From: Haliclystus octoradiatus
Lineage: Eukaryota; Cnidaria; Staurozoa; Stauromedusae; Haliclystidae
Direction: 5' to 3'
Length of the DNA: 64,000 bases
Assembly (NCBI GenBank): GCA_916610825.1
Contig: OU744449.1
Location: 26,395,732-26,459,731, forward strand
Shown here: piece by piece, positions 5,342 to 64,000 of the stretch
How positions within the stretch are numbered: the first letter of the stretch is position 1
Layout: each line of letters begins with the position of its first letter
Translations under genes and position numbers: made by a program
Notes under the pieces: model-generated
What the model was told of the DNA's origin: nothing
What the model saw: only the letters and a program-made list of their open reading frames with translations
Databases searched by the model: none

Positions 5342-5347
5342 TTTATT
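5342..5347 (-). promoter_or_regulatory. Candidate poly(A) signal of gene B
   Basis: TTTATT on the + strand reads AATAAA on the minus strand, 77 bases beyond the stop codon of gene B. Confidence 0.5.
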
Positions 5348-5423
5348 CATTTTTTTCTGCGATTTATTTGCTGTTCTTATAAACATTATTTTACACTTAT
5401 ACAGTATATATTCTCGTGAAATG

Positions 5424-5689
5424 TTATGGAGTAGGTTTAATAAGCTTTAATTTCATTGTTGTTCTTGATAGTGGTGCGAAATCAAATTTCCATTTACGCC
5501 ACGAAATACTTAATCCAGAATTTGTAACCGTCATTCCATATAATCCATTAAGGTTTGATTCATGACATCCTACATACCACCATGCACCATGATATTTTTC
5601 TGCACAATTTCCATGAGAAGTATCATGATCTTCATCAAATGTAGAAAAAGGCTGGTCGTGGTGATTCAAGAGTGAATTTTTCGCATTGC
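5424..5689 (-). CDS. Gene B exon 6: C-terminal half of fibrinogen-like domain and stop
   Basis: Terminal exon with acceptor TTCACAG, phase 1, and stop TAA at 5424-5426. It contains FSTFDEDHDTSHGNCAEKY, then GAWWYVGCHESNLNGLYG, then WRKWKF and TTMKLKL. These are the calcium-loop, disulfide and C-terminal strand motifs of fibrinogen-related domains. Confidence 0.9.
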
Positions 5690-11609: not shown

Positions 11610-12980
11610 GATTTTAAAGTCATTTGTAACAACAAAAAGATGAAAGATTGAGAGATATTTACTGCTTCGTGATGTTCTCAGCTATTGGTATTGAGCATAA
11701 TTATTAATTTTCGCTTTCTTCATATGGAATTACTTATAAATCATTAAGAATTGATGAGTTGATGAATATTTGTTTATTTATATTTTTAATCGACATTTGA
11801 ATTATGATTGATTGAAACCGCACCGAGAGAGAATAGCCAATAGCCACGGATAATTGCCAATTTAAGCCGGCATCAGCCTGGAAATACAGGATACAAGAAG
11901 TTCCTTTTCTACAATTTGGTATTTCGGACAACTTTGTGACGAAAAATTGCAAAATGGTGCAATTTTGAAGGCATTACAGTAATGAAGCTACTATATATGC
12001 AAATGGCACCTTCTTTTGTGCAAAATGCCTATTTCGTCAGGAAAATTGACAAACACACCGGTCCTTTGATTGGCTTGTAGTTACGGCTGTTTCATGCTCT
12101 GGTGTACGTCATTGGAATAGTTTACTGGTTTCTGTAACGTAGTGCAGTTGCCTTGCAATGTTCAAACAGAAGTGCATATTACTTACTAACTTGAAAATCC
12201 AGACACCTTGTTAATACAAAATTTTAATGGCATTTTAATAGTTTTCTGCTTGCAAAATTATAGTTATATTTTTAATCTCCCTACTCTGCGAAGGAAGGAG
12301 AGATCATAATTAGCAATTATATTGACCGGTAGATCACAATTAGCTCACACTTACGCAGGGGTCAAAGAAGTTGCTCACGCAGTAGTTTTTCATGGAATCG
12401 CTATTTAGTGATTCTTGGAACCGTGAAGCTTGCCCCTTTTTTCGTAAAATGTCGCATTTTGGTATCGAAATTAAGTTCACAATAGCTCAGCTACTTCAAA
12501 ATTTTATCACGCATTAATTTCTGGGTTATCTAGACTTTTAGTTTCAAGGAATGTTGCTATTTTTTAGAATCTCAGTTTCAAGTGTGCCGTGTCAATCAAA
12601 AACTGTGGTAGGCGATAGATACTGTATCTGATGCTCTAGCTAAGCGGGGGATTCCTAACATGACGTATCCTATTGAAATGCACGTGCGAAGGGGCGATGT
12701 AAAGGTCATATAAATAAGCATTGAACATACATTATAATTGAAGAACACGAATTTCAAAGTAATCCCAAACTTCAAAGCATATCTCCGTGTCGTGCGTGTC
12801 ACTGTGGTCACATCTCATTTGGATGTGTAATTGTGTTTCCCTTTCGTTTCTAGACAAATTTCATAATTGATTACATATTAAGTTAGATTTAGACGAATAT
12901 GTGTCTATTTGCTCTACTCCGTAGAGCAGAACAAACAGCTTGCCACGATAGATTGACACGAAAAAATATATCACTTTGAT
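11610..12980. other. Intergenic region between genes B and D
   Basis: About 1.4 kb upstream of gene B. No coding region, RNA gene or clear promoter element was recognised. Confidence 0.4.
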
Positions 12981-15350: not shown

Positions 15351-15426
15351 AGAAGAATTTTGAGACTACATTCAGAATTATACAACACACAATTATTGGA
15401 GATTAAACTATTCATATATAGTTACA

Positions 15427-21715: not shown

Positions 21716-21957
21716 TTACAAATCTTTCTTTGTAATTTGTTCAAATCTCAATACTCTCATCATTTTATATTCATTAATTGTACGGAATTTTGCGTATGTT
21801 AATATTCCCAAATGATAACGATTATATTTTATAAAAATTTCCCATTCCTTTTCATGTTTATCTTTTAAACGTATTAATCTCGTATTGAAATCTTTCAGGA
21901 AGGATTCAACCACACAATGAAGCAAAGCAGCTTCTGGGAATACATCTTTTGCTTCAG
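21716..21957 (-). CDS. Gene C exon 32: cytoplasmic tail and stop
   Basis: Acceptor GAATTTCAG, phase 1, stop TAA at 21716-21718. It encodes about 80 residues, charged and soluble-looking (AEAKDVFPEAALLHCVVESF start, FEQITKKDL end), following the last membrane segment. No known domain was recognised. Confidence 0.8.
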
Positions 21958-24900
21958 CTGAAATTCAAAAGAGATACGATTTAGATGAAAGCGTTTAAAT
22001 ATACTGCAGCATCATATTTTAATATAGATCAATGTAATAAAATGCAAATAAATCAATTTATAAAATTTTAAGATATTACCTTGAATAGTATTCTTTTTCA
22101 TCTGAAGTCGCTTGCAATGCAATACCAAACCAAACAATACAACCACCAGAAGAACTATTCCTGTAACGAGCGATGTCTTTTTGATGGCTGTTAAATCGAT
22201 ATCAAGGTTTGGTTCTTCCGGTGCATCAAACCACTGGAACAAATAAGGCAGCATTAATCTATACCTATATGTGAATGTTAAAATCTCTAACTGTGTCTGT
22301 GTGTGCATGGCTTAATTTTCTGTTGTTTAATAGTCAATTCACAAGTTATCCTGACATTTCTCCAAAATCATATTTCAAACTTGTAAAAGGGGTAACTCAG
22401 GAGCTTCAGGTACAGGAAGGACGCCAATTTCAATTCAGAAGCACCTTAGCAACATAATTTTTTTTATTCTCAAACTAATTCCTCATTTACTTCATTAAAA
22501 GGTATCCCCAAACATTTCTTTCGAATTGTAATATATATGCTAGATGATTCCCAGAGATTGTGAAAACGTACCCTAATTGATAGGTATGTCCCCGTATACC
22601 AACTGTATTGAGCAACCTCAAGGGGGTTCAGACAAATTGAAGCAAACGTTTTAGATCCTATGAAAATATTTAATGGGTTGAAAGACTTTACTATGTACTA
22701 ATAGAGCACCAATGAGGCATTACAAAAACAATTTCTTGTAGTGGAATCCGGCATGGGACTTGAGTCCACTTGGAAATCAAAAGTTACATTGTGAAGATAG
22801 ATTTGTTTGCTTAATATCTTAATAATAGTCGGTAAGGGTAATATCTATTTTGAGGGCACATCCATACCTCGTTTGCATCTATTACTCCATGCATTGCTTC
22901 ATACTCTCTAGCATAAGGTCTGATAAATTGTTGAAGCAGGATCATTTCTGCTGCCAAAACCAAACCATCAGATTTTGTGCTTGGTATCACCTCGACAACA
23001 CGCATGTTCTTCTCTTTCAAAATGTTCTTCATTGCAATTGCTGATCGATAATCTATTAGGATTCCTTCGACAAGTTCTTGTTCGAGTGAGTTAATCAAAT
23101 CCATTGTATCATTGAAATTCAAGTCTATAGAGAAAGTTATAAAAACAGTTTCTAGAATACGACATAAAGATATTGCAGTATAATTGATCAAAACAATTAT
23201 CAAATGTAAACAATTTAATTTCAATTATTGTCACTGTGAATGTATATATAATAGAATTGTTGAATTTGGATCAACACAGGATAAGAAAGCTGACAGAAAT
23301 GTTTAAAGCTAAAAACGAGAAACAAGTTTCACAAAACTATCAAATTTTTGCTTGAAACAAAAGTGTACACATTTGTCCATACAGCTATAGAATAACATTT
23401 TTCTATTTTAAGTAAAAATGTTCTTGTATTCTTTTTATTTTCCTGTGTGTGTTTACTCAGACATAATAAACTTTAGAAAAGATGTAAAAAAAGTCAAGCA
23501 TACGATATAATACTTTACTATACAATAAACGGTAATAAGTCGTATTGTACCTGAATGATTGACTTTAGAATTTCGTCTTACTGCAACTTGATATTCTTGG
23601 GTATTATCAATCACACCGATCTGATAAAGTAATCATTTAAATTGAAACAATTTTACGTCAGTTATTTAAAAATATTGTTGTGTCAGCTTAAAGGTCCCGA
23701 ATAATTGGTGATGATGATGATGATAACGATAAAAATTGTTACAGCTTCTATCAAACCTGTTATAGCGACCACCTCTGTTTAGCAATCACTGTCTATAGTA
23801 TCCACTTCAGTTATATACGCGAAAAACATTATTGACATTGCCTAGTTTCTATAGATTGTAATTGTTTGTCCTTGGAAGTTATTCAGGGCTGAAAAGATTC
23901 TGATCAAAAGAAGGATAATGGTTCTATGATGATAATTACTTATAAGCCAAATAAAGTTTGTAAAGTACAATCTATGACTGATATTATTATAGTAGAAATA
24001 CCTTTGCACCATAGAGATTCTTGTACGGTAAAACATTTTTTTCTGCAAACATTTCTGTTGAAATAGCTGATGAAAACATGCCAATCAATATCAAACCAGA
24101 CATTGAGCACATAATTGTGAAAATACGGGTCAGTATGCTACGTGGTGTTAGATCTCCGTACCTGGTTAAACGACATAGAAATATAAATATTCTTAATTAC
24201 GTCAATATTGAAATTTTTTTCTTTATAATTTATTATTTATTTCTTCGTACATATATATATATTATATATAATTATTATTATATAAAATTTAATATAATAA
24301 TAATTAATAAATAATAATATTAAATATAATAATAAAATTTATGTTTATCTATAATAGCAGATAATATAGGGCTCTATGTCTTCATTTGACAGAGCGGTAA
24401 ATAATAATAATATATGGCGAAAGAGTCAAAGAATACACATTCTGAATACACGGTCTGAAGATCGCTGTGAAAAGCGTGAAACTTGTAAAGTATGTGTATT
24501 CTTTGACTCTTTCGCCATATATTATTATTATCTTTCGCCATATATATATATATACATTCAATAAAATGTTAACTTGAAACAGAACTATGTGTCATTTAAA
24601 AATTTGCCTAATATACCCCTATTTTAATTTATCTAATTAATCTATTTCAAAATTGTTCTCAACGTCATCATTACTAAAGGTAAAATATATTGAAATTGAG
24701 CAAAATCGACGGACTCGATTGGTCGAACAACGGTTAATTCTAAAGCCGTATCAAAACATGGGATGTTTTTGACTTCTGATTTTTCTGTTAGCCATTATTG
24801 ATACCCATTGTCGCTACGTGTTTCCTTAAAGTCTGCTAATAGAATCAGCAGCCTATGTATGACTGTATGTCTATCATTATGACTCACCCAACTGTTGTCA

Positions 24901-27900
24901 TAGTGATCAATGCCAGCCACGTCCCCTGGAGTGCTCCTTCAACGTAGCTGTTGCTTTGAAATTCATCTTTATTTTCAACTCGATCCTGAAATCAATCATA
25001 ACATCTACACCTCATAGTAATCATCTAATTACTTAAGTACACATGTGCGTATATGCATTTTCCTCAGAATGTATCGAATGATATTAATCCATGTTTGCAA
25101 ATTCATTATATTGATCATATAAGACAAACAGTTTTTTTACTCTAAACTGATCACAAGTAGCATTACAAATTGTAGAAAAGCAAATAGCTATACAGCAATA
25201 GCAACTTGGACAAGATAAGTTGAATAATTGAAGCCAAAATCCCAACTTCAAGATTCATCGATGTCCTAGTGATACACTAGTAATACTTATATAGCACTAT
25301 AAGTGGTATACCACAGTGAACTAGTATAAACCAGTGAAAACAGTGTTCTGATAATTATAATTCTTGTTCTTGAAATGCTACTACCGTGTTTATACTCTGC
25401 GCAAATGGTCCATTGATGTGATGTGGCGATCCAATAATCTTGGGTCGGAACATCACTTATTTTTGAGAGGATCTACTTCACAGCAACTAGAAGTTAGGTA
25501 GAATAAGTAAAAAAATTCTTATCATGCTGTAAACTTCTGTGTAGTCTATTGTTGAGTAGACACAAAATTAGCCAGACTAAGTGCAAGGATAATTGAGCGC
25601 TAGGTTTCTGTAAATATCTTGAAGGTATCAATGAACAATTATATAAATAATTCAAGAGCTTCTGATTTTCAATTATTTTTCAATTTCTGACAGAAGAGCT
25701 ATTTGTTGGCGTCATGATGGGAATGAAATCATAAGAAGAGCACATGTGTCGACCCTAAGAATGAACCAATTGGCAAGCGAAACCGGTGAAACAAGCTACA
25801 ATAGTAACTGCATGGATTTTCGGAACAATATTAAAATATTACATCTATAGATTACCAGAAACCAAATAAATATTCCAAATAAATGTGCAATGAGTATAAC
25901 CATTAATACGACAGGCCAACATTTGAATAAAGCAAACAAAATATTGACAGTTTCTGTTTCCACAATGACATCTTTGACAACATGAGCTGATCCAGCATTT
26001 TTCAAAAATGGAATAAACTTAAAACCACCTTGAAACGTATCAATAATTGAATTGGCTGTTACAGGATAATGGAAGTGTGCATTGTCGTCAATAGATTGAA
26101 GTAGTTGGTTAATGCCTATGAAGCAAATATAGATATTTCAAATAAACTACTTATGTATGCAAGCATTAAGAAGTTGTTACTATATGGTGACGTGTAATGA
26201 ACCGATTGTAAGTTTTAATTATATTCATAACACTGAAAGGTGGCCTTCGCGTTCGGTCTTTGAGTACAGTGCGTGTAACAAATATCCAAGGGAGACGGCA
26301 CACTCCTATAATGTAACTGCCTATACTACTACTACTACTACCGTGATGCAGTGATCCAATGCACTACTTGTGGCTTGAGAGATGGCATTCACTTTCAACT
26401 TTGATCGCGTAAGAGGGACGGCACACTCCTATAACATGGCTGCCTATACTACTATTACTACTACTACCGTGATGCAATGAACTAATGCACTACTTGTGGC
26501 TTGAGATATGGCATTCACTTTTCAACTTTGATCGCGTAAGAGGGACGGAACACTCCTACAATGTGACTGCCTATACTACTATTACTACTACCGTGATGCA
26601 GTGATCCAATGCACTACTTGTGGCTTGAGAGATGGCATTCACTTTTCAACTTTGATCGCGTAAGAGGGACGGCACACTCCTACAATGTGACTGCCTATAC
26701 TACTATTACTACTACTACTATACTACCGTGATGCAGTGATTCAATGCACTACTTGCGGCTTGAGAAATGGCATTCACTTTTCAACTTTGTTCCCGCAAGC
26801 CGCGATAGTCAATATCTATCAGTCACTCATCAGCAGGTCATTATGAAAGTTGAATAAAATCGAGAAATATATTATCGCCACAGAGCTAAAATGGCAGGTT
26901 TCTTCGGGCAACTTGAAAATCACATAAAAGTGTTTATAAAAATATGATAAACAATTACCTATTTCTTGTTTTAATCAAATTCTATTGTACACCCTTCAAA
27001 AATCAAATTCATATTTCAAGATTCACGGAGAAAGCCATCTTATCATTTTGAAAATGCTGCATGTGAGCTTCATGGTCTTTGATTCTTTTGTTCTCCCAAG
27101 ATTTTGCGAATCCATGGAAGCATGACGAAAACACAAAATGAATGAATTAAGAGGGCTCTGACCGTGAAATGATTTATGAATTCATCTCTGGCGATCTCCA
27201 CAATAACATTGGACTAAAACAAGAAACGGGAAAGTATTTATGCTATTTTTATGAATATTGTATATGAATTTCAAATTGCCCGGAGAAACCTGCCAATTTA
27301 GTCCTGTGGCGCTCGGTTGATTATTGGATCTCAGGCTCAATGAGCATAGGCATAATGACTTTGACGTATCTCGGTCAATATCAGATGATATTTTATACGT
27401 TGACATAGATAAATAACTGTTAAAAACTTACCGTATTTAATTGGCTGCCTCCCATTCCGCGTTCGGTCAAAATATATCATTGGTCTTTCTGAATCAAATG
27501 GAGATCCAATAATTTTGTAATGCTGACAAATACCGCAAATGGAATTCATCATTTTGATGATTAATTCAGGGAGTATTCCTACAATTGATCCATTTTTATA
27601 ATTGATGTAAGGCATCTCAAGAAAATACGATGAGTAGATAAGCGGTGGACAGCGACAAGTTTCTAAAATATTTAATAAATGATTTGTTAATTCCTGCATA
27701 ATTTCATAATAAATGTGAACTGCATACTGAATAACTTAACAATAACAAATGATAACTATTTTACATTATTAGATATTTGAATAGATTTCTATTTGATGTA
27801 GTATAATTTGAATTTATAAACATCAGGTGCCTGATTTGTTTCTAGGCTTCTATATATGTTTGATAGATTTGACCCATTATGGATTTAAAAGAAGCTAGTC

Positions 27901-30900
27901 TGCCAACCGCAGTACTGTAAACAGAATTTACTTCAACAAAATGGGGAACGACTGGGAATCTGAATTGATAATCTTTAAGTGTTATTTATTTCATCCCCAA
28001 CTAAATTTTGGAAAATGCATCCTCTATTATTCCTTTATCCTATGTATTTTATGGACTAACATATTCATTCATTGGTTTAATGCTTTGCAAATGCAAATAT
28101 CTTTAAGTAAGAGCTATGTATTTTCCTTTGGGAATAAAAACATTCCACCGGAGGAATATTTTTATTGATGGCCGCAGGATAAGCAGCGTCTCCAAAGTTA
28201 AAAATTTGGGAATATATTCAACAGAAAATTCAAAATTGACTGCACACTGTGCCTATCTTTCTGTCAAAGCGTCTTCCATGTGTTAGCTGTTAAAACGCAT
28301 CTTTACATCAAGACATAAAGATTTATTGCCCGGGGCGTTTAAAGTTTACATCAGGCACATTCTTGAATCTGAGACACCTGTATGGAGTCCACAGTTGGTG
28401 AAACATATCGACGCCATCGAAAAAGTGCAACGAAAATTCACGAAATATCTATATGCACAGTGGCCAGACTGCTTTTACAATGATAGAATGAAGATTTTAA
28501 ACTTAGAATCCCTAGAGATTCGAAGAATAAAACAAGATCTCTGCGTAGTATTCAAACTTTTAAACGGTTTAGGGTTTAGTTGATATTCCAACAACAGATA
28601 TGTTCACTATTAGATCAAAAATCGTAAAACTCGAAGAAGAGGAATCTGATTTGGAGCATTGAAGGTGGACCTCAAGATTTAATAGAAGCTGGAGTTGAGA
28701 TCCATAAATTTCAGGAAATTCGGGTTTGAACTTAATTCTCTTTGTGTTTGAGAGTATTCTAAATGGAGCGTTCTAAGAGAGTAGAAAACAGAGGAACAGA
28801 TAAAAATTATACGGGAGTAAATTTAAGTTCCCCCCATATGCGGGAGCCCACTATAGGGCATCTGCATGTTAACATATAAGACCAGTATAACTAATAATGC
28901 GGATACATTAATTTTATTCAAGCAATGCCCGTCATCATCATCATGTGCTTTTTTTCAAATAGACTTTTCCATTTTCTCTGCTTTTGGCTTTTTCTGCCGC
29001 AATAAGAGAAATAATTTAAGTCCTATATTCCTCAAATCTTCTTTAAGTTGGTTGATGTGAGTGTTTCTGAGATGTCCATCAATTAACACGGTACAGTTCC
29101 GTTGGTTGGCTAATTATTAGAGCATTGTAAGACCAGTATGTTGTTTCTTATATAATTCTTAAAGCTGACAAGAGGGAATGTCCTTCGACCCTGTATAACC
29201 GACCACATATATCATTGTAATGATTGGTTACCTGCATAAACTGATTTACTTAATGGTCCCGTTCCAATCATTGTGTATCCTGCCACTTGTGCTGTAACTT
29301 CATAATTTGGATTGAAACCATGAATAATATAGGATGTTGTTGTTTGTCCAACCTTTTGAATATTTGTAAAAGGAAATTGATAGCTAACAGATCCTTTTCT
29401 TGATACACCATATGTAATCATATAACCAAGTAATATTCCTCCGTGATGATTTTGATTTATTGGATACCATGATAGTTTAATAGATGTTGGAGAATAGAAT
29501 CTTTCTGCTGCAACATGCATAGGGGGCATACTTGGAACTAAAACAAAAATGTCATAAGGATTAGATATAACCAAATCCAAGGAAGCAAATATGTTTCCAT
29601 CAGGACACAAATTTTGGATGGTTATTAAAGCCCTTAAGGGAACGAATAAGCTTTTTTCACAAATTTAAAAAAAAGTAGAAAACGAAATGTGTTTTTATTT
29701 GGTAACTTCAAACTTTCTTTTTCAAAGTTCTGGCTTCCCTATTGACAGAAATGGGCTACAAATGTTGATAAATTAAGTTGAAATAATGCAGCATATTTCT
29801 ATGTTAATTTTTACAATGTATAGATAGAGATTTTATTTTATCTTTTTGTTTTATTTTTAAGAAATATATATTTTTGATACAAAGAAAAATTATTTGTATA
29901 AGGCAAGATCACTTTCGTTTATTTCATAATTTTCAAGATCTAATGGCTAATTTTAGTCACACGAAAAGCTAGCAAACCTTGACGAGTATCATACACTGCT
30001 GTCAATCAAATTGAAATCGCATATATCATACATATATCACATATGAGATATATTTACTGGTTTACGATCATAAACATATCAACAGTAGCGATATTGTCAG
30101 CAACAGAGTCATCAGAACAGTGTCAATATAGTAGGGACGATTTTGAAATACTCATTTTTTACCACTTCTGAACTGAATAAGCTTTTTTCACTGGGATCGT
30201 TCGTTAGTTGATTAATAATTTGGAGCTTGAGAGTTTTATGAATGAATCCTATCCTGGAATCAGGCTATAGTGGTCCTGTCGAGAATTGAGCCCAATACTC
30301 TACGGCTTAAGTTCCAAAGTCCTGACCACTGCGAGTAACCACCCTTTTTCCTTGATGTTAATTATGTAAATTATGTGTTGATTATTTTAATTATGTTAAT
30401 TATGATAATTATGATAATCATTTGAATTATGTTAGTTATGTCAATTATATTAATTTATATATTACCAGTTTGGATGAGTGTCTCTTACCTCCTTCGATAG
30501 CCTTGCAATGAGTCCAATCCCACTCACCCATACCTCCACTACTTCTAGCAGCCAATTCTACTTCATATAATAAAGATGGATTAAGACCACTAATAATGCC
30601 AGATGATGCCGATGCAGGGAATTCTACTGAAGACCAAGCGTCGGCGGAATTGTAAATCTTGTAGCGTGCAACATAATTCTCCATCATTCCATTCCACTGA
30701 TTGTCATTGATTTGACGCCACAATAGACGGATACTATGACTGGATTGTTCAAGGCAGTGTAATATTTTGGGAATTCCTGATGGAGCTGAAGTGTTACAAA
30801 TTACAAATAATAGAAATAATATTAGTGAAACGAGGAAGTAAATCATTCAAGAGAAATTTATTTTGATTCTTTAGGAGGAGTCCGACGTTTTACGCCAGCT

Positions 30901-57900: not shown

Positions 57901-60900
57901 ATTTGTTAAAGGCATTGTAGTTTGTAGCCCGGTAGATCTTGAACACTTTCTTCAGCCTTCAAAGTCGCGCTCAAAATTTCAATGTCAAAGTTTGCATAGC
58001 AAATTACCAACCGTCAATAGATGTGAAGTTTTTGGCAAGATTTCCAGCTGGGGTTTTGACTAGATTCACACCATGGTCACACTGGTCTCTGTGATGTACC
58101 GCTGAACGGAGTTGAAACCCAGCTTGATCAGTAATCATTGAAATTGTGACTCACGCAATAAGTTTCACATCTTGCCGCATGAATGTATTATTTTGCTTTA
58201 TTTCATTTCGATTGCAAATGTTAGATAGATATATATCATACAACGATCATTGGATAAAGTAGATAGATACTGCGTCAACTCGAGCATTTTTTGCGAAAAG
58301 CTGTCATCTCTGCAATCATACCACATATGCTGTTTATTTTCTGTTTGATTAATATTTTCGAATGTTTTCAATTTTTTTGCTGAATGGCTGACCCTGGTTT
58401 TGTAACCCGTACTTTGAAGGCGACTAAAGAGCTATTCAGTTACTTACTACAACGTGGTAAATGGAAGTAATTTACCACGGCTATTACAATATGAATTGAT
58501 TATTATGATGACTCGCCGAATGATATGGTTCCAGGCCTGACGTGATTAAAATAATACTACTTGGGTTCAACGGTGTCCTGCCTATAAATCCACAGAAAAA
58601 TTATCAAATTGGTTATTAGACGATTACATGATTAGTTAGAGACTGTCGTTCAAGAAGAGTAATTTTCTGTGAGTTGTATTATCTTTAAATCACTAACCCA
58701 ATGCAAGCAGAAATTTAACATTTTTTCTAGACAATATCGACATCATTTATAGTTATCTTGTTCAAAAACTCTATAAAATTGAAGATAAATCATACAACAG
58801 ATTCAATTAACTAAATGCAATTTAGCTATTGCTTTATATCGAGCATTATTTAAAATGTTAAATTACATCAATTATCTAATCAATATATTTCATAATCACG
58901 TTTCCATAACAAAATATGCTCAAAGTCTAGAACAACAAGTAATATATATATCATCATTTTTAATTATATTTACTTAGCACCAGGCCTACTTATACATTTG
59001 TGTACTTCATACAATACTATTAAATATATGTCAAAGCTAACAAAACTCCTATAGCCTTTTGACATACTGTATGCTAAACTGCTATATAGCTATCATCTAA
59101 TTTTACTGTATTTCTTGTATGACCGTTGTATGACATAGCTGTATAAATTTTAATATAGTATATTCTGTATATACTTTATTTGCCAATCCTTGATGGTTGG
59201 AAATAAAATACACGCATACAAACATCATACTGTTGTAACCTTGTTGTTACTAAAAAAAGGTACATTTCAAAAACCATACAAAGAGCGTTACTTTTTTGAC
59301 CATTTCTTTCCCTCATTTTTAATACATTGATATAGATATAAAAGGATATGGACTGTATTAATTTTGTTGCACAGTTTACTCTTTACGCAATTACAATGAA
59401 ACATTAAATATATGGAATCACCCTATATAGACCGTCTACCTGTGGTCAACGGAGAATTTATAATTTCAAAAATATTTGTTTTATGGACATTAGCCTCAGT
59501 ATATAATTCATCATTTTCCTTCTCATTTCTATTGATTGCAATTTATTTTCAATTTCTTGGTTAATTTTCACACAATGTAAACGAACAGCATCGCTCATAT
59601 AGTGATGCGAAATAAAATAAAATTCAAACAACCACTTTTATAAATATATAGATATATAGGATCTACCTCATTTCCTATATCGCATGTAACTGCAGTGGGA
59701 GCAGCAAGCTAGATTATCTTGATACAAGACATAATGAGCTCAGACAGGTATGCTAGATTTTATATCTCTTTTTTAAGATAATTATGATCGGCGTCCAGGA
59801 AGTGTGAAATACCTGGTAAAACAGATCTTGTTTGGACTAATTTTTTCTCTGAAATAAGACTTAATGGCTATGCCATTTTTCAGTTTTTGCTGTGTATATA
59901 TACAATCTACCTACATGTGGTCAACGGTGAACTTATAATGTCAAAACTATTTGTTTTATGAACTAAGGTATATAATTCATAATTTTTCTTCCCATTTCTA
60001 GTGATTGCAATTTATTTTCAGTTTCTTGGTTAATTTTCACACAATGTAAACGAACAGCATCGCTCATATAGTGATGCGAAATAAAATAAAATTCAAACAA
60101 CCACTTTTATAAATATATAGATATATAGAATCTACCTCAATTCCTTCATCGCACGCGTAACTTCAGTAGGAGCAGCAAGCTAGATTATCTTGATACAAGA
60201 CATAATGAGCTTAGACAAGTATGCGAGATTTTATATCTCTTTTTTAAGACAATTATGATAGGCGTCCAAGAAGTGTGAAATACCTGGTAAAACAGATCTT
60301 GTTTGGACTAATTTTTTCTCTGAAATAAGACTTAATGGCTATGCCATTTTTCAGTTTTTGCTGTGTGTGAAAGAAATGTTCAATTTTACCCGAGTTGTGG
60401 ATAAATGAAAAAAAAATTATTGACTCATGAACAATTGTTATGTTTAATATATAAAACATTGATATACCTGGACATAAAGCTGCAGTGCAAAGTTTAAAAT
60501 CAGTTAGGTCACCATCTGCAATGCCATTGTTGCATTCTCTTGTTCGTTCTCCACATGCTGAACTACAAAGAGTCCAGGTAGACCATTCCGAACAATCTGG
60601 AACTGGAATGGCATTCACATGGAATTAACATATATACCTCCAAATATTGACACATGACAATGTGTTATAATGTTAAACTCTGCTACGCTATGTGCAAAAT
60701 AATGGCAAAATAAAAGAATTAAAGACCATGAAGCTCACAAGCTGCATCTACTCGTAATGCTAAGAAAGCTTCAACCTTGAATAGTGGAATGTATATAAAT
60801 AGGATTTTTGAAAAGACTAACAATAAAACTTGACTAAAACAAGAAATGGGAAGGATACTATATTTTATGAACACATTTTTGTGAATTTCAAGTTGCCCGG

Positions 60901-63900
60901 AAGAATCTGAAGCTTTAGATCTGAGCTGAGTCTAATGAAAATTCCCTGTTTTCTGTCTGACTGTAATTTTGGATTTACATCTGGGATTTTACGAAATTCT
61001 AGAATTTTTGAATTAAAATGTGTCCTCCATCGTGATGCAACGTAGCAACAGCCTACCATGCCCCAATATATTATAAAAGAAACATACATCAACGTAAAAT
61101 CTGGAAGGGAGAAGTGGAATGATCTCTTATAAATTTTGAGTTTCAAGCTCAAAGCTAGATTCTTCATTTTTGAGAATTTTTTTTTTTCAAAATCGAACAC
61201 TTTTTCCTTTTATTTTATTGTAAGTTATTGTATATTTTTATATAGCATCAATTTTGGTATATGCATATTGCATATCTTACCCCCTTATGGACTGAATCTA
61301 ATTCACTTCAACTTATTCAGCTCATATACTGACACCAAAACCATGTAAAAGGGTGAAATTCATGCCTTTTCATGACATTTTCAAGGCATATTCACATTTT
61401 AATATCGTGTGAATGTGGATGTTATCATGGTTTTCAAACTTGTTCATGACATATACAAATTTGCGTTTTTACTTTTTTTACATGTTCATTGTGTTCTCAC
61501 AACACTTCCATGGCATTTTTACGGCTTTACTGTTGGTAGTTTGAACACAATATATCAAAGCGTAATATCAATTCAACGTACCTTGACCATCAGCAGTATA
61601 TGCTAACATAAGAGTTGGATGAATGTTGTTTATTGCTCGGAATGATGGTAACGGATCATGTACGGAATGGTTTACCAGTTGTATCCGGACATACACTGTT
61701 GCATCCGTTTGGTAGTTGGCTAATAACGGCTTTAACTGTGGAGCTATGTCAACAGTGTTTTGCGAGATATTTTTTTCATCAATCGTCCATGGAGGAATTA
61801 TCCATTCGATACTGTTAGTCATTTGGGCAGATAATGTGCTATAGTCTGCACAATCTATAGAATTATTTGAGACTGTAATTTTTGCTGTGAAGCTTCTGTA
61901 GGTTGTGCTTTTGGCAATGAATCGAATGTCTGCATATTTTAGCAAGGAGGTGTCAATCGTCTTGAATTGAAATTTAAATCCTACTATCATATCTTTGGAC
62001 AGATGACGTACAGTCTTGTCCATTGCATTGTCGCATATGGTACGTGATGAAGAAAAGCTGCCAATGGATAGAACTTGTTGAGTAATATAATCTGTAAATA
62101 ATTCAATAGCACATAAATTTGAACGTGCTGTGAATGATAAGATGACCGTTTGGTGGTATAATATGCATGTATACAAATGTACTCATCGTACTTCAGAGTA
62201 TCCACACTACTAATGGATGACGGGAATCTATTTTTCCTTTGCACATGCGCATTTTATTCAATTTTTACAGCCAATGAAAATCGTCTCACATATTTATTGT
62301 TAAAATTACTTCCACAATTTATCCATTTACGAGAACACCTTTTGTTTGTTTAGTCCTCTTTATATTTTTTTTATAGATGAGCCTGGGAGGTTTAGATTCG
62401 AAACAAATTCACAGTTAAAGTGGAAACTTAAAACCTTCGGGAAACGGGAAGACTTGTATTCAGGGCATTCATTCTTCAGTTTGACCAGTATGAGGATTTC
62501 TAAAACCTTCACTGTGAACGAAACTGTTCTGAACAAAGTTTTGATGGAAGTGCCTTATAGACGTTCACAGTATGGATACGCACAAGCACGATTCGATTTC
62601 GACTTCGAAAGACTTCGTTACAAATCTGATTTTCCCTGATATGAAAAGATGAGATTCAATTACCAATTTTCTTGAATTAGATGCGGGATTAGATGAAGCA
62701 ACATTTTGTGAAGTCTTTACCTTGATCGTTTATAAAGCAATGATGTCGTTGTATCTCTGGCAGGACTTCTTTGTTTCCGCTAATAAGATTTTCCAAAGTT
62801 GTTGTCTTTGTCCTCTCCATAATGCCAATGAGAGAATCACTATCTTTATTGCATTCTCCCCATTCACCAATATTCTCCGTCTGATAGCATCGTTCTATAC
62901 GGTATAAAGCATAAGGATTACAAAGTCAATACGTTATTATTCCATTGCTCCATGAACTGTCATTGCTCTACCCCAAATAAATTTGAAACCTAAATTGCGG
63001 TGGATAGGTACGCAATTTTGAAAGAGAAACCTGTCATTCATATCAATTTGGCTTCGAAGCATTTGATCTCACATTGTTTGGTGAAAACAACGATAAAAAC
63101 ATGTAGCAAACGATTTTAATTAACAAAAGGAAGACATTCGGAAGATGTAGTAATTTCATTCGATACTTGTTATTTTATATGTCGTATAGTATAGGCTTTG
63201 CTATAACAACATCTATTGAGATCCCGTGAATGCAAAGGCTAACATGAGCCTGATTTAATTATTCAGATTACACATGAACATAAATATATTACAGGAATTA
63301 AAAGAGTGCTTTCGTCAATCAGGCCCATTCATTTTTCAGAAAAAGGGGATGATACCATAAAGTTCTGATGTAGCGTTTTCAACTTCAAACCGTTCCGTAA
63401 CAAAGGTTTTGGCTATAACTTTGTTATAGGTTTGTATATATTTTCAATTAGACCTACTTGAAAAATGTATTTTGATCTTTGGACCAAATTTCTCCTTTCC
63501 TCCAGCACTGAATAACTCTGTGGAATGTGAATATGTTCGCCTAGAACATGCAGATGCCAAGTTATCGGTAGAAATGAAAACAGTAAAATCGACTTCAAAT
63601 CTGTCATCATGGGCCTTGAAGAAATCATTTAGCAAATCAGCTATATCCGGACTTTCGTGCAACGAAGTGTCAAACCATTTGTTTTCGTATGACCATACCA
63701 CTTCAAATTGATTTAGTTTTCTACTTGGCCTCGAGCAGAATTCATTGGCTCTTATACCTTTTGGGGCGTTCATGAGATAATTGATTGTGGCATCAAGTGT
63801 GCAATTAACGTCATCGAAGCTAGCCTGAAATTGGATGTTAGCACTAGATACTTTATAGAACGATGGTTTTGCAATATTGCTAAATTTAATCAATAAAGAA

Positions 63901-64000
63901 CTAGGTACTCCTTCTGTACGTGGAAGTTCTGGGTACGTGTTTGGTTGGTCAAATATAATGCATTCAATGTCATCTGTAGTAACAATATCGAAAATATCAT
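21716..64000 (-). CDS. Gene C (5' partial): giant lectin/TSP1/SEA/FN3 receptor with K+-filter glutamate-receptor-like channel
   Basis: Assembled from 32 exons spanning 63973 to 21716. Junction phases agree at all 31 joins, and the coding length (7220 nt) leaves exactly 2406 codons including the stop after the two-base partial first codon. From the N-terminus: two beta-sandwich domains, TSP1, CTL, CTL, TSP1, CTL, CTL, TSP1, a short Cys-rich exon, CTL, three Ser/Thr-rich linkers, four TSP1, SEA and three FN3. Then come S1, M1, a pore with TTVGYGD, an inner helix, S2, M4 and a basic cytoplasmic tail of about 100 residues. All ectodomain joins outside SEA are phase 1, and the FN3-to-S1 join (29232 to 27662) is also phase 1. 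No stop, signal peptide or start exon separates ectodomain from channel. The signal peptide must lie beyond the right edge. The alternative is two adjacent genes split at the 1.6-kb intron 29231-27663; transcript evidence would decide. Confidence 0.75.
22080..22233 (-). CDS. Gene C exon 31: M4 transmembrane segment
   Basis: 154 nt, phase 0 in and 1 out. It starts WFDAPEEPNLDIDL, where the W aligns with the end of an iGluR S2 lobe. A membrane span TSLVTGIVLLVVVLFGLVLH follows, then a basic CKRLQMKK stop-transfer. This extra C-terminal helix is the eukaryotic glutamate-receptor M4, absent from bacterial GluR0. Confidence 0.85.
22868..23124 (-). CDS. Gene C exon 30: S2 half of the ligand-binding-like domain
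   Basis: 257 nt, acceptor TCTCTATAG, donor GTATGG, phase 1 in and 0 out. It contains SLEQELVEGILIDYRSAIAM and later SDGLVLAAE. This resembles the v..G..D..a lobe-2 strand and helix of Lig_chan or SBP_bac_3 folds. The motifs are weak, so ligand identity is open. Confidence 0.75.
23551..23620 (-). CDS. Gene C exon 29: start of S2
   Basis: 70-nt exon, acceptor TTTATCAG, donor GTACAA, phase 0 in and 1 out. It encodes GVIDNTQEYQVAVRRNSKVN, comparable to the first S2 strands that cross back from the channel in glutamate receptors. Too short to score alone; supported by phase. Confidence 0.7.
24002..24161 (-). CDS. Gene C exon 28: end of K+ filter and inner helix (M3)
   Basis: 160 nt, acceptor TTTAACCAG, donor GTATTT, phase 2 in and 0 out. 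It starts with the last base of a Gly codon, then YGDLTPRSILTRIF, then a helix CSMSGLILIGMFSSAISTEM. YGDLTP completes the potassium-channel filter. The helix has K-channel-like glycines and lacks the glutamate-receptor SYTANLAAF motif. Confidence 0.88.
24240..24345. repeat. AT-only low-complexity tract
   Basis: About 100 bases almost entirely A and T (TATATAATTATTATTATATA and similar) in intron 27 of gene C. Confidence 0.9.
24401..24531. repeat. Perfect 40-bp inverted repeat
   Basis: 24401-24440 is the exact reverse complement of 24492-24531, with a 51-nt loop. The loop contains GTCTGAAGATCGCTGTG and GCGTGAAACTT, related to phrases at 38430-38465, 46863-46892 and 46992-47020. Confidence 0.95.
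24888..24985 (-). CDS. Gene C exon 27: pore helix and start of K+ selectivity filter
   Basis: 98 nt, acceptor GATTTCAG, donor GTGAGT, phase 0 in and 2 out. It encodes a short acidic turret, then YVEGALQGTWLALITMTTVG. Joined to exon 28 the filter reads TMTTVGYGD. The pore helix GTWLALITMTT is typical of potassium channels. The intron splits the first filter glycine codon (GG|G). Confidence 0.9.
24986..25855. other. Gene C intron 26, no feature seen
   Basis: AT-rich intron without recognised repeats. Confidence 0.5.
25856..26115 (-). CDS. Gene C exon 26: end of S1 and M1 helix
   Basis: 260 nt, acceptor TTCATAG, donor GTAATC, phase 1 in and 0 out. It contains INQLLQSIDD and FHYPVTANSIIDTFQ, then GGFKFIPFLKNAG. 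These align with the S1 end of glutamate receptors (dF..Pf...G). The outer helix CWPVVLMVILIAHLFGIFIW follows. The conserved carboxylate-binding arginine of the TIT..R motif is not visible. Confidence 0.8.
26285..26800. repeat. Minisatellite of about 125-135-bp units with (ACT)n cores
   Basis: Four copies of a unit containing GTGATGCAGTGATCCAATGC, TGGCTTGAGAGATGGCATTC and GAGGGACGGCACACTCC, separated by CTACTACTATTACTACT stretches of varying length. Copies start near 26343, 26470, 26594 and 26729. In intron 25 of gene C. Confidence 0.9.
26876..27311. mobile_element. MITE-like element with long inverted termini
   Basis: Ends CGCCACAG and CTGTGGCG. Inward the two sides stay inverted over more than 100 bp (AAATGGCAGGTTTCTTCGGG versus CCGGAGAAACCTGCCAATTT). 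Related copies at 50598-51033 and, partially, about 60715-60920. No coding capacity. Confidence 0.75.
27432..27662 (-). CDS. Gene C exon 25: S1 start of ligand-binding-like domain
   Basis: 231 nt, acceptor AATATTTTAG, donor GTAAGT, phase 1-1. It encodes TCRCPPLIYSSYFLEMPYIN and then NGSIVGILPELIIKMM. This matches the S1 opening of glutamate-receptor-like domains (P......g...Gil.dli..l). The frame is open for another 12 codons upstream to an ATG at 27699, so a start here is formally possible. That reading lacks a signal peptide, and the acceptor plus phase fit with the last FN3 exon are better. Confidence 0.8.
28070..28585 (+). pseudogene. Decayed LINE reverse-transcriptase fragment
   Basis: Reads across frame breaks. 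Pieces such as KVKNLGIYSTEN, VYIRHILESETPVWSPQL, IEKVQRKFTKYLYAQW and LESLEIRRIKQDLCVVFKLL match the C-terminal part of LINE reverse transcriptases. It carries at least one stop and lies on the opposite strand in the intron joining FN3 to the channel module of gene C. Confidence 0.8.
29232..29537 (-). CDS. Gene C exon 24: FN3 domain 3
   Basis: 306 nt, phase 1-1, acceptor TTGTTTTAG, donor GTAACC. Fibronectin type III pattern: PSMPPMHVAAE, SIKLSWYPINQ, GYMITYGVS, and a YEVTAQVAGYTMIGTGPLS end. It is the last ectodomain module before the channel. Confidence 0.9.
30176..30345 (-). repeat. Diverged SINE family 1 copy
   Basis: Shares the AAGCTTTTTTCACTGGGATC start, the TCCTATCCTGGAATCAGGCTATAGTGG middle in degenerate form and a GAGAATTGAGCCCAA B-box relic with the other copies. 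Confidence 0.55.
30489..30785 (-). CDS. Gene C exon 23: FN3 domain 2
   Basis: 297 nt, phase 1-1, acceptor AACACTTCAG, donor GTAAGA. It encodes PSGIPKILHC, HSIRLLWRQI, YVARYKIYN and LLYEVELAARSSGGMGEW. The open frame upstream of the acceptor begins with an ATG and hydrophobic residues (MIYFLVSLILFLLF). This is probably chance in T-rich intron, but a start inside it cannot be excluded. Confidence 0.85.
30740..31079. repeat. 170-bp tandem duplication covering the 5' end of FN3 exon 23
   Basis: 30740-30909 and 30910-31079 are near-identical. The second unit copies the acceptor and the first codons of exon 23, then ends, leaving a partial duplicate exon without a donor 5' of the real one. Confidence 0.9.
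31373..31675 (-). CDS. Gene C exon 22: FN3 domain 1
   Basis: 303 nt, phase 1-1, acceptor TTTGATAG, donor GTAAGT. It encodes MALPPFDFTATSISSSEIRM, SWKGY, VAFRRL, and YIIPGLEPRTTYMVTLAAYT. Clear FN3 strands; joins exon 23 as THQG-TPSGIP. Confidence 0.88.
32008..32150 (-). CDS. Gene C exon 21: C-terminal part of SEA domain
   Basis: 143 nt, phase 2 in and 1 out, acceptor CGTTTCAG, donor GTAATA. It begins NGSIIANVTVFYDNISGTEV and ends GINVDAITVQP. The GSII stretch sits where many SEA domains self-cleave (G|SVVV). Joins FN3 exon 22 at phase 1. Confidence 0.82.
32151..33155. other. Gene C intron 20, no feature seen
   Basis: About 1 kb of AT-rich intron without recognised features. Confidence 0.5.
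33156..33214 (-). CDS. Gene C exon 20: middle of SEA domain
   Basis: 59-nt exon, phase 0 in and 2 out, acceptor CTTTTTAG, donor GTAGGT. It encodes ILSFIHHPQKVNDIHVNSL and then two bases of the Arg before NGSII. Supported by phase and by the SEA fold context. Confidence 0.75.
33215..34442. other. Gene C intron 19, no feature seen
   Basis: About 1.2 kb of intron; only chance reading frames. Confidence 0.5.
34443..34555 (-). CDS. Gene C exon 19: N-terminal part of SEA domain
   Basis: 113 nt, phase 1 in and 0 out, acceptor TTTTACAG, donor GTACTT. It encodes SIQIGMNIRLLNGSFTKDLL and NRSSTAYLEYVEKEKEK, the first strand and helix of a SEA module (f..dl.n.ss..y). Joins the preceding TSP1 as QCNG-SIQIG. 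Confidence 0.82.
34894..35013 (-). repeat. SINE family 1, tail fragment
   Basis: Carries the ACCGGGTAAGC...CACCGGGGTGGTTGGTTAAT and TAGCCGGATGCC blocks but lacks the tRNA-like head. Confidence 0.7.
35520..35690 (-). CDS. Gene C exon 18: TSP1 domain
   Basis: 171 nt, phase 1-1, acceptor GATTTCAG, donor GTATGT. It encodes DGKFSDWSEWSSCDVLCDGG, MQRWRRCSNPMPQYGG, NECNG and ACNIDQCN. Full TSP1 with WSEW, the RWR layer residues and six cysteines. Confidence 0.93.
35691..36602. other. Gene C intron 17, distal part
   Basis: Intron sequence between the TSP1 exon and the 84-bp array; nothing recognised. Confidence 0.45.
36603..36938. repeat. 84-bp tandem array, four copies, overlapping an exon end
   Basis: AGTAGATGG recurs at 36608, 36692, 36776 and 36860, an exact 84-bp period, with few mismatches between copies. 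Each copy carries TTTCATACTTTGGCATGCTTCA. On the minus strand this is the last codons of TSP1 exon 17 plus its GTATGAAA donor. The array therefore begins inside the exon and repeats its splice donor three more times in the intron. Confidence 0.95.
36925..37095 (-). CDS. Gene C exon 17: TSP1 domain
   Basis: 171 nt, phase 1-1, acceptor CTCGTAG, donor GTATGA. It encodes NGDWSEWNSWTQCTQTCFGG, MRYRLCDNPAPMNGG, LDCDGG and WCNTEACQ. Its last 14 bases belong to the first unit (in transcription order) of the 84-bp array. Confidence 0.93.
37919..38143. mobile_element. Harbinger-like MITE
   Basis: Inverted termini AGCCTGGTTTCCATATATAG and the complementary CTATATGGAAACCAGGCT extend about 31 bp with a 2-bp indel. 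The flanking 3-bp duplication is TAA (37916-37918 and 38144-38146), the TWA type used by PIF/Harbinger elements. 225 bp, no coding capacity. Confidence 0.8.
38397..38592. mobile_element. Short retroposon-like insert with long direct repeats
   Basis: AAAAGACAAAAGAATG occurs on both sides (about 38397-38412 and 38577-38592). It frames an insert that contains AACATTGAGCACTTTCACA, a phrase also found at 44245-44270 and 48790-48810. Long target duplications suggest retroposition. It lies directly next to the donor of exon 16. Confidence 0.5.
38602..38751 (-). CDS. Gene C exon 16: TSP1 domain
   Basis: 150 nt, phase 1-1, acceptor TGTGTCAG, donor GTGAGT. It encodes GVWTIWSACVFTTDQTCG, KQRYRECLQQNICTNEERQ and VICNRSVCQ. 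Six cysteines and the W..W motif are kept. Confidence 0.88.
38910..39271. mobile_element. Candidate non-autonomous DNA transposon
   Basis: Starts CCCCCGGGGGGGGGG and ends CCCTCCGGG. Both ends are flanked by ATTCTAG (38903-38909 and 39272-39278), a 7-bp direct repeat. The ends are GC-rich and only loosely inverted, so the family is uncertain. Confidence 0.5.
39755..39907 (-). CDS. Gene C exon 15: TSP1 domain
   Basis: 153 nt, phase 1-1, acceptor AATTATAG, donor GTAATC. It encodes WQTWGPWSACDLTCGDGFM, IRRRSCPRNL and YQECNRHINCE. The exon lacks an internal start codon but has clear WGPW, TCG.G and RRR TSP1 marks. Confidence 0.88.
40193..40309 (-). CDS. Gene C exon 14: Ser/Thr-rich linker, copy 3
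   Basis: 117 nt, phase 1-1, acceptor ATCTTTAAG, donor GTATAT. It encodes DSLNCTDDCDSTPNTTAIPS, TTHQPTYNES and YTNENIT. Mucin-like, with potential N-glycosylation sites and a CTDDC pair. Confidence 0.8.
40388..40504 (-). CDS. Gene C exon 13: Ser/Thr-rich linker, copy 2
   Basis: 117 nt, phase 1-1. It encodes DSLNCTDDCDSTLTTAAIPS, TTQQSTYNES and VYTNENIT. Exon plus flanking intron recur with a period of about 195 bp. Confidence 0.8.
40585..40701 (-). CDS. Gene C exon 12: Ser/Thr-rich linker, copy 1
   Basis: 117 nt, phase 1-1. It encodes DPLDCTDDCDSTLSTTAIPS, TTQQSTYNES and VYTNENIT. It is the first of three tandemly duplicated exons that lengthen the stalk after the third lectin block. Confidence 0.8.
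41174..41203. repeat. (ATC)n microsatellite
   Basis: CATCGTCATCGTCATCGTCATCATCATCAT in an intron of gene C. Confidence 0.9.
41379..41555. mobile_element. Tc1/mariner-pogo-like MITE
   Basis: Inverted ends CAGTCTAACCTGCTATAAC and GTTATATACAGATTTTACTG, flanked by TA on both sides (41377-41378 and 41556-41557). Internal CTATAGTGGTCA motifs repeat. A related fragment is near 23740-23800. No transposase. Confidence 0.75.
41838..42257 (-). CDS. Gene C exon 11: C-type lectin domain 5
   Basis: 420 nt, phase 1-1, acceptor TTACCTATGTAG, donor GTAAGT. It begins IVYESCRNTFEPFNDECWSY. It keeps FIGGQDFDGDYVWEWEDG, WSTNEPSAKKEQ, CLAMLNGQWNDINC and CGFLCKYKR. It is the only lectin exon here with both an EPx motif and WND, so it is the best candidate for a calcium-dependent sugar site. 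Confidence 0.9.
42886..42960 (-). CDS. Gene C exon 10: short Cys-rich exon (truncated TSP1?)
   Basis: 75 nt, phase 1-1, acceptor CTATTTTAG, donor GTACCA. It encodes GWTNCHELTICDDTCEMMEN and QTEPK. The GW...C...C..TC spacing resembles the first half of a TSP1. Being phase neutral, it may be included or skipped without a frame change. Confidence 0.5.
43636..43788 (-). CDS. Gene C exon 9: TSP1 domain
   Basis: 153 nt, phase 1-1, acceptor TTACTAG, donor GTACAT. It encodes AAQWNEWTLWSYCNSTCGLG, TTVRMRDCGSGNDC and YESCRSGYCP. Typical TSP1; the exon contains no in-frame start codon near its beginning. Confidence 0.9.
44331..44437. repeat. Imperfect hairpin (33-bp arms)
   Basis: GACAGCAAAAGTCAGTGGCA...TTTTCTAAT (44331-44363) is inverted at 44405-44437 with about three mismatches and a 41-nt loop. 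A foldback or MITE relic in gene C's intron. Confidence 0.85.
44502..44900 (-). CDS. Gene C exon 8: C-type lectin domain 4 (six-Cys type)
   Basis: 399 nt, phase 1-1, acceptor GCTTTCATAG, donor GTAATT. It encodes CKNDFHKFGKHCWYFG, FIGLNDMDNEGSYTWLDG, DCVVATTNGWHQILC and GYICKYSP. EPN and WND calcium motifs are absent. Paralogue of exon 5. Confidence 0.92.
45709..46107 (-). CDS. Gene C exon 7: C-type lectin domain 3 (four-Cys type)
   Basis: 399 nt, phase 1-1, acceptor CATTTTGCAG, donor GTATGA. It encodes DCSDGFVQYQENCWLF, DIGLRDISYRTEKIYNWIDG, NWNNGEPHTKDQ and FGFICKNKR. It lacks the loop disulfide pair found in exons 5, 8 and 11. Paralogue of exon 4. Confidence 0.92.
47228..47525 (-). pseudogene. 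LINE reverse-transcriptase relic beside exon 6
   Basis: ERVQKQFTRRIFARHCPDII, YQDRLKHLKL and CFAFKLLHIY match LINE RT C-termini. An adjacent frame gives EYATRVYSLKNSK, a frameshifted remnant of the EYA..VWSP block. It starts only about a dozen bases beyond the donor of exon 6. Confidence 0.75.
47538..47666 (-). CDS. Gene C exon 6: TSP1 domain
   Basis: 129 nt, phase 1-1, acceptor TTATTCAG, donor GTATAG. It encodes DWSAWGDWNLCGATCGLRSR, KCLSYGCYG and HCNQTICE. Same length as exon 3, in keeping with a duplicated TSP1-CTL-CTL cassette. Confidence 0.92.
47667..48837. other. Gene C intron 5, no feature seen
   Basis: About 1.2 kb of AT-rich intron. An AACATTGAGCA phrase shared with other intronic repeats is near 48793. 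Confidence 0.45.
48838..49236 (-). CDS. Gene C exon 5: C-type lectin domain 2 (six-Cys type)
   Basis: 399 nt, phase 1-1, acceptor GCCTTCACAG, donor GTAATT. The frame is open throughout. It encodes CKNDFHKFGKHCWYFG, FIGLNDMDNEGSYTWLDG, DCVVATTNGWYQIKC and GYICKYSP. Very close to exon 8 at DNA level. Confidence 0.92.
49371..50175. mobile_element. Harbinger-like non-autonomous element
   Basis: Termini GGCAGTCTACAAACGTCG...GCGCCGTGCT and their complement at the right end match at about 35 of 38 positions, with TTA on both flanks (49368-49370 and 50176-50178). It is GC-rich relative to its surroundings. The 152-codon frame inside shows no transposase motif. Confidence 0.8.
50598..51033. mobile_element. 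Second copy of the long-inverted-repeat MITE family
   Basis: Contains AAAATGGCAGGTTTCTCCG at the left and CGGAGAAACCTGAAG...CTGTGGCG at the right, homologous to 26876-27311. The left tip is diverged. Confidence 0.65.
51034..52172. other. Gene C intron 4, remainder
   Basis: Contains a GTACGAACCAGAGCCATC at about 51329, roughly inverted at about 51590-51615 (GATGGCTCTGGTACGAAC), possibly another MITE. Otherwise nothing recognised. Confidence 0.4.
52173..52574 (-). CDS. Gene C exon 4: C-type lectin domain 1 (four-Cys type)
   Basis: 402 nt, phase 1-1, acceptor TTGTATTTTAG, donor GTAAGA. It encodes DCPEGFLKYRKNCWLFEIR, ACEEYNSTLASIRNVDESR, HIGLLDTSYRNEQIYNWIDG and AGFICKSHI. No EPN or WND motif. 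Paralogue of exon 7. Confidence 0.92.
52621..55936. repeat. 3.3-kb tandem duplication, unit 1
   Basis: Starts CCTGCACAGCAAAATCCTTC, 46 bases from exon 4, and is followed directly by unit 2 at an offset of 3316 bp. The units are highly similar throughout by eye, with small indels. No exon of gene C and no transposon protein was recognised. It includes two CACGCAATAAG-type phrases seen elsewhere as GCGTGAAAC repeats. Confidence 0.93.
55937..59421. repeat. 3.3-kb tandem duplication, unit 2
   Basis: Repeats unit 1 from CCTACACAGCAAAATCC to TATGGAATCACC. An extra segment of about 190 bp near 58915-59110 is absent from unit 1. Confidence 0.93.
59433..60365. repeat. Tandem duplication of about 460-bp units
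   Basis: The block from CTACCTGTGGTCAACGGAG to TTCAGTTTTTGCTGTGT (59440-59896) recurs at about 59910-60364. It includes GATTATCTTGATACAAGACA and TACCTGGTAAAACAGATCTT in both. Confidence 0.9.
60468..60596 (-). CDS. Gene C exon 3: TSP1 domain
   Basis: 129 nt, phase 1-1, acceptor AGTTCCAG, donor GTATAT. It encodes DCSEWSTWTLCSSACGERTR, ECNNGIADGDLTDF and LCTAALCP. Six cysteines and a WSTW motif. Confidence 0.9.
60715..60920. mobile_element. Partial copy of the long-inverted-repeat MITE family
   Basis: One half only. GTGAATTTCAAGTTGCCCGG and ACTAAAACAAGAAATGGGAA match 27180-27310 and 50930-51020. Confidence 0.6.
60921..61581. other. Gene C intron 2, remainder
   Basis: AT-rich intron, nothing recognised. 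Confidence 0.45.
61582..62091 (-). CDS. Gene C exon 2: beta-sandwich domain, copy 2
   Basis: 510 nt, phase 1-1, acceptor TTATTTACAG, donor GTACGT. About 170 residues: FKFQFKTI, YADIRFIAKSTTYRSFTAKI, SIEWIIPPWTIDEKNISQNT, VDIAPQLKPLLANY and IHPTLMLAYTADG. The order AxIxF..., VxWxxPxW, SPDI..LL and PxLxIxY is that of a beta-sandwich module common in bacterial surface proteins and some marine invertebrate proteins. No name is certain. Confidence 0.75.
62092..63457. other. Gene C intron 1 (visible), no feature seen
   Basis: About 1.4 kb. A 97-codon frame on the + strand (62346-62639) shows no domain, and its context gives no support for a gene. Confidence 0.45.
63458..63973 (-). CDS. Gene C exon 1 (first visible): beta-sandwich domain, copy 1
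   Basis: 516 nt, phase 1-1, acceptor TTACTACAG (the frame is also open to the window edge), donor GTAGGT. It encodes IKFSNIAKPSFYKVSSANIQ, FQASFDDVNCTLDATINYLM, FEVVWSYENKWFDTSLHESP, DIADLLNDFF and PKIKIHF. Same layout as exon 2. The signal peptide and any further domains lie beyond base 64000. Confidence 0.75.

Follow-up and report, generated by a model that had tools for sequence, protein, structure and literature searches.

Can a single cnidarian gene encode both an adhesion- and lectin-type ectodomain and an ion-channel core? The question is raised by a stretch of 64,000 nucleotides from Haliclystus octoradiatus (assembly GCA_916610825.1, contig OU744449.1, positions 26,395,732 to 26,459,731 of the forward strand; hereafter the window), in which the original prediction, made from the letters alone, had joined beta-sandwich, TSP1, C-type lectin, SEA and FN3 modules to the core of an ionotropic glutamate receptor (iGluR). 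All positions given here are those of the whole window, "extended" positions lie beyond its nucleotide 64000, 40 kb was fetched outside it, and exon borders were chosen by eye from the sequence.

One gene from ectodomain to channel core

The gene occupies the minus strand from 64000 to 21716 and has 33 exons in the window, 25 for the ectodomain and eight for the core. The one open, phase-consistent gene and the eight core exons of the original prediction thus stand, while its totals of 32 exons and 24 ectodomain exons have to be raised, to 33 in the window (34 overall) and 25, respectively. All 32 in-window junctions are bounded by AG and GT and agree in phase, there is no internal stop, and the frame closes on a TAA at 21716, as had been expected. 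The start had been placed wrongly at 63973, a point that follows an internal AG; the frame is open upstream of it to an acceptor at extended 64030, just outside the window, and an extra exon at extended 66444-66174, about 2.4 kb outside, encodes a signal peptide (MFLSGMYRHSLLSCFVCIIFLIFCFKMFTG...) and then the start of a TSP1 domain, and so forms the start of the gene. The complete joined model has 34 exons and 2,581 amino acids with a single terminal stop, and about 2,060 residues of extracellular region precede the core. Five segments exceed the hydropathy threshold, the signal peptide (11-29), a weak one within S1 (2118-2136, 1.63), M1 (2237-2255), M3 (2297-2315) and M4 (2472-2490); the model thus has no sign of a second signal anchor ahead of the channel.

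When pieces of the protein were compared with Pfam, Lectin_C matched in five stretches, fn3 in three and TSP_1 in five (one in one piece and four in another, exon 4 staying below the cut-off), and the core matched Ion_trans_2 (6.3e-12), so that the architecture is not a product of chance. Among the ectodomain pieces there was no match to the LIVBP amino-terminal domain at E 0.1. The SEA-like region scored 17.0-21.3 bits in the window gene and two Hydra sequences, with SEA as the best match in all three and every score below the Pfam cut-off of 26.4; a profile of these three sequences had the adhesion receptor ADGRF1 as its first match in the PDB (E 6e-5). A GS[VI] motif, which we take to be that of self-cleaving SEA domains, is kept in the window gene, in two further Haliclystus copies described below (A and C), in both Hydra sequences and in an open stretch of a third copy (B) outside its modelled exons. 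Glycan-binding C-type lectins carry the motifs EPN or QPD plus WND; none of the five lectin domains here has EPN or QPD, and exon 12 has EPS and WND. These motifs do not bear out the glycan recognition suggested in the original prediction.

These copies, A, B and C, are paralogues on the same chromosome at a distance of about 0.5 Mb, and all three keep the order of FN3, a TCRCP linker and the core. We modelled exons 20 and 22-33 of A, 23-31, 32 and 33 of B, and 22 and 24-33 of C, and matches farther upstream were counted only. The identity of phases between the copies is partly built in, since the fit required those of the window gene; not built in is the finding of open exons bounded by AG and GT in these phases everywhere we inspected. 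Nor is the agreement in exon length, which equals that of the window gene in 13 of 13 modelled exons of A, 8 of 11 of B and 7 of 11 of C. In all four Haliclystus copies the TCRCP linker follows FN3. In the exons of equal length, with exon 27 of A excluded, mismatches to the window gene at codon positions 1/2/3 numbered 216/123/371 in A, 244/173/341 in B and 174/104/246 in C. This excess at the third position argues for a gene rather than a chance arrangement.

The junction recurs outside Haliclystus, where the original prediction had proposed to look for it. A search with the core returned 53 proteins, the best named animal ones being from Hydractinia, Oculina and Pocillopora. The motif AETCRCP occurs in P0001, P0005, P0006 and P0008; it is preceded by FN3 in P0005 and in the coral protein P0006 from Oculina, and P0001 and P0008 begin shortly upstream of it. 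The whole-length search returned four proteins: two Hydra loci account for three of them as isoforms, and the fourth is a centipede Dscam2-like protein whose listed domains include no channel. In P0054 and P0055 of Hydra, TSP1 is followed by a SEA-like region, FN3 and an ARTCKC linker leading into the core; by reading, three FN3 domains follow SEA, and Pfam passes two and four fn3 stretches over the whole proteins. Hydra vulgaris LOC105849170 and LOC101238067 thus resemble the window gene in their TSP1 repeats, SEA-like region, FN3 and core, with ARTCKC as linker and TIGYGD as filter. P0054 and P0055 differ from it in having no C-type lectin among their Pfam matches and in what they carry towards the N-terminus, namely a laminin-G-like module in P0054 and additional FN3.

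With the junction present in four of four Haliclystus copies and in Hydra and Oculina gene models, we regard it as nearly certain that the FN3-bearing ectodomain and the channel core form one polypeptide, as originally proposed, and the presence of relatives elsewhere among cnidarians points to an old fusion. A secreted short form ending after exon 25 is possible, since this exon, when read on into its intron, meets a TGA after six codons.

The channel core and its family

The core also gave a Lig_chan match of 23.4 bits, under the cut-off of 30.8. In a PDB sequence search with an E value of up to 1, the best 60 of 304 matches were K+-channel-type pores, and a comparison of folds was therefore needed. 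It used a model of the Hydractinia homologue P0001 built from 38 sequences (predicted local distance difference test, pLDDT, 84), which replaced an earlier model from 11 sequences (pLDDT 65.7). The model resembles iGluRs and the ligand domains of GluR0 and AvGluR1, its clamshell being closest to GluR0 and to glutamine-binding proteins. Taken together with the hydropathy of the window protein, it displays the iGluR layout, a bilobed S1/S2 domain split by M1, a pore loop and M3, with M4 after it; only these helices and the loop were found, and no seven-helix module. The filter TTVGYGD is present in all four Haliclystus copies, and all 40 aligned rows retain the K+ filter, although many of them had been recovered partly through the filter itself.

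An iGluR-like core with a TXVGYG filter and the ligand-domain fold is shared with bacterial GluR0 and AvGluR1 of the rotifer Adineta vaga, both of which appear as TXVGYG receptors in PMC3483616, where the motif SYTANLAA is also named. The animal iGluRs (AKDF, NMDA, epsilon and lambda) likewise share the S1/S2 clamshell, pore loop and M4. The window core differs from them in having a K+ filter and not a Q/R/N site, in the loss of the S1 arginine considered below, in the lack of the SYTANLAAF gate motif from M3, whose end reads GMFSSAISTEMFAEK, and in that no LIVBP amino-terminal domain was found. To our knowledge, AvGluR1 and GluR0 have no adhesion ectodomain, and AvGluR1 is the only animal iGluR with a K+ filter that we know of.

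A profile search returned 223 proteins, and among the 120 listed, 15 had E values below 1e-69. Six of these 15 rows are named, from Hydractinia, Rhopilema, Acropora and Hydra, and nine are without species. CUB occurs in 10 of the 15 and FN3 in two, and the CUB type would be favoured among these matches because the first sequence of the profile was a CUB-Ig protein. Below the top 15, the listed matches comprise one octocoral protein, GluR0-like proteins (PF00497) and general K+ channels. Within the reach of this word-based, length-limited search, the channel family looks cnidarian. A tree was built from 37 of the 40 rows, P0009-P0011 being dropped as rows without S1 and no other animal iGluR included. 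The four Haliclystus cores, the two Hydra cores and P0001 form one group (support 94/90), and eleven GluR0-like rows (PF00497, with P0021 from a named cyanobacterium) lie on one side of a branch supported at 100/100; two long branches, P0071 and P0072, meet in this tree.

Elsewhere in Haliclystus, two tandem sets of matches at C1:24228000-24249400 follow the CUB-Ig-type protein P0060 in order from CUB to tail, and would represent another kind of ectodomain within this channel family. Pore or S1 matches also lie on C2, C5, C8 and C10; the many at C5:20.96-21.30 Mb and on C8 and C10 suggest an expansion of the family, although some may be ordinary Kv channels.

Passages of PMC12226733 discuss the animal iGluR classes and mention no such adhesion-channel family. 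Among the open-access papers listed, none describes the fusion, which is weak evidence of absence. The original prediction that no receptor of this architecture had been described holds in this sense, but the implied uniqueness does not, as database proteins of Hydra show most of the architecture. Sequences from Hydra, Hydractinia and corals are already deposited as uncharacterised proteins, and the receptor type, as far as we have seen, is undescribed.

Exon layout, sequence exchange and neighbouring elements

Read in the direction of the gene, the in-window part of exon 1 (63458-64000, its true start being at about 64030) and exon 3 (61582-62091) each encode a beta-sandwich-like domain with no Pfam match above the cut-off, with exon 2 (62721-62894) between them. 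Exon 4 (60468-60596) is assigned to TSP1 by its WxxW/Cys pattern, and exon 7 (47538-47666), which Pfam does not list, is taken as a short TSP1-like domain because of its pattern and of the matches that it has in paralogue A. The five C-type lectin domains are encoded by exons 5 (52173-52574), 6 (48838-49236), 8 (45709-46107), 9 (44502-44900) and 12 (41838-42257, with EPS...WND); all five are assigned by Pfam, and exon 8 has 85% amino acid identity to an exon of paralogue A. The TSP1 domains assigned by Pfam are those of exons 10 (43636-43788), 16 (39755-39907), 17 (38602-38775), 18 (36925-37095) and 19 (35520-35690). The short linker exon 11 (42960-42886, 75 nucleotides) is the least certain of the model. 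Exons 13-15 (40701-40585, 40504-40388 and 40309-40193) encode the Ser/Thr-rich linker; they are three tandem, nearly identical exons of 117 bp separated by introns of 80 and 78 bp, an array whose length perhaps varies between individuals.

Exons 20-22 (34555-34443, 33214-33156 and 32150-32008) make up the SEA-like region with its NGSII motif, and are followed by the three Pfam-assigned FN3 domains in exons 23 (31373-31675), 24 (30489-30785) and 25 (29232-29537), the last ending in SKSVYA in phase 1. The core begins in exon 26 (27432-27662) with the ETCRCPP linker and the S1 lobe, and continues with the end of S1 and M1 in exon 27 (25856-26115), the pore helix with TMTTV in exon 28 (24888-24985), the remainder of the K+ filter (GYGD) and M3 in exon 29 (24002-24161), the start of S2 in exon 30 (23551-23620), the S2 lobe with the aspartate of EGILID in exon 31 (22868-23124), M4 in exon 32 (22080-22233), and the cytoplasmic tail and stop codon in exon 33 (21716-21957).

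Ectodomain content differs strongly among the copies: paralogue A (C5:26.948-26.972 Mb) has roughly ten matches each to lectin and to TSP1, the window gene has five lectin domains, and no match to lectin was seen near B or C. Exon 27 (26115-25856) is 94.6% identical in nucleotides to C5:26980457-26980716 of A, with 27 of 31 four-fold sites matching, whereas the other compared exons reach 62-77%. The tract of high similarity ends 2-4 bp from the exon borders and is probably a very tight gene-conversion tract. The region of lectin exon 8 (46119-45642) is 88.9% identical over 478 bp to C5:26955623-26956099, a similarity that reaches 12 bp into the upstream and 67 bp into the downstream intron and points to either exon duplication or conversion.

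Two elements lie beyond the 3' end of the gene. On the plus strand at 15364-19722, an open frame of 1,452 codons encodes a BEL/Pao-type retrotransposon (Peptidase_A17, RVT_1 and an integrase zinc-binding domain by Pfam). On the minus strand at 4197-11681, open stretches include a fibrinogen C-terminal domain at 5427-5711 as well as PAN-like domains above (4197-4691) and below (11172-11681) the cut-off, and appear to be another recognition-type gene or genes downstream.

Proposed gating of the receptor and what it would mean

How might such a protein work? The predicted order is a signal peptide, TSP1, beta-sandwich and five C-type lectin domains, a Ser/Thr linker, TSP1 domains, a SEA-like region, three FN3 domains and the E-T-C-R-C-P linker, followed by a bilobed S1/S2 domain of periplasmic-binding-protein type around M1, a K+-filter pore loop and M3, and then M4 and a cytoplasmic tail. 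A pore selective for K+ would arise from four subunits. Self-cleavage of the SEA domain may occur at G|S, with the lectin/TSP1 part retained non-covalently, and a ligand binding to that part, or pulling on it, could act through the FN3 stalk to change the clamshell, open the pore and hyperpolarise the cell. ADGRF1 (GPR110), which the SEA profile had matched, likewise carries a SEA-like domain on an adhesion ectodomain adjoining a signalling module; adhesion G-protein-coupled receptors (GPCRs) have seven helices there, and the window protein has a K+-channel core instead, so that the receptor would be their ion-channel counterpart. For this full mechanism, in which a SEA-bearing adhesion receptor is itself a K+ channel, we judge the chances to be about even.

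The strongest competitor, which we nonetheless hold to be unlikely, is a K+ channel gated by amino acids in the manner of AvGluR1 and GluR0, with an ectodomain that serves only to place the receptor at contacts with matrix or cells. The modelled kinship of the clamshell with GluR0 and glutamine-binding proteins would fit it, as would the S2 aspartate, kept in three of four Haliclystus and both Hydra cores. AvGluR1 and GluR0 bind amino acids (1ii5 and 4io2, with glutamate), but the column of their carboxylate-binding S1 arginine, as placed by the alignment, holds no arginine in any of the four Haliclystus or two Hydra cores, P0054 having one a single column away. It is present in 11 of 11 GluR0-like rows and in 5 of 20 other rows, the latter a point in favour of amino-acid gating. 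The missing arginine makes it unlikely that the window protein is a glutamate receptor. The altered ligand site, together with the very large ectodomain and a lectin number that varies between copies, would also suit a non-conducting or constantly open subunit serving mainly in adhesion or recognition, its clamshell a structural relic; the conservation of the K+ filter described above, with the same caveat, speaks against this, and we consider it the less probable of the two.

Very improbable is a pair of adjacent genes, one for a secreted adhesion protein that stops after the third FN3 domain and one for a short channel of GluR0 type that starts with a signal peptide of its own. The phase-1 junction would fit this too, but all four copies preserve both the order and the linker, and the junction is fused in independent Hydra and Oculina gene models. 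The intron before S1, where the original prediction had allowed that a separate signal-peptide exon might lie, measures 1569 bp in the window gene and 1285 and just 505 and 529 bp in the other copies, and all four were scanned for hydrophobic open reading frames led by ATG with a phase-1 donor. The frames in A (1.81, with phase-1 donors) and B (2.94, with weak phase-1 donors) and the short hydrophobic ones in C, which have no phase-1 donor, speak for such an exon; against it, the candidates in the window intron are weakly hydrophobic, at most 1.22, and the candidates are unlike each other across the copies.

Known adhesion receptors signal via GPCRs, kinases or the cytoskeleton. If the adhesion receptor does double as a K+ channel, one polypeptide reaching from lectin/TSP1 modules to a K+ pore would turn recognition into hyperpolarisation in a single step, and would show to what use animals have put iGluRs with K+ filters. 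It would also provide candidates for the sensing of self and non-self, prey or substrate in cnidarians. Related genes exist in the laboratory animals Hydra and Hydractinia, so the proposal is directly testable. Tentatively, and with more doubt than for the single receptor, one could envision an undescribed, cnidarian-wide family of adhesion K+ channels, whose iGluR-like cores, partly without amino-acid sensing, were repeatedly joined to recognition ectodomains (TSP1/lectin/SEA/FN3, CUB-Ig, EGF or FN3), in which self-cleavage of SEA would make contact or force the gating stimulus and touch or recognition would silence the cell.
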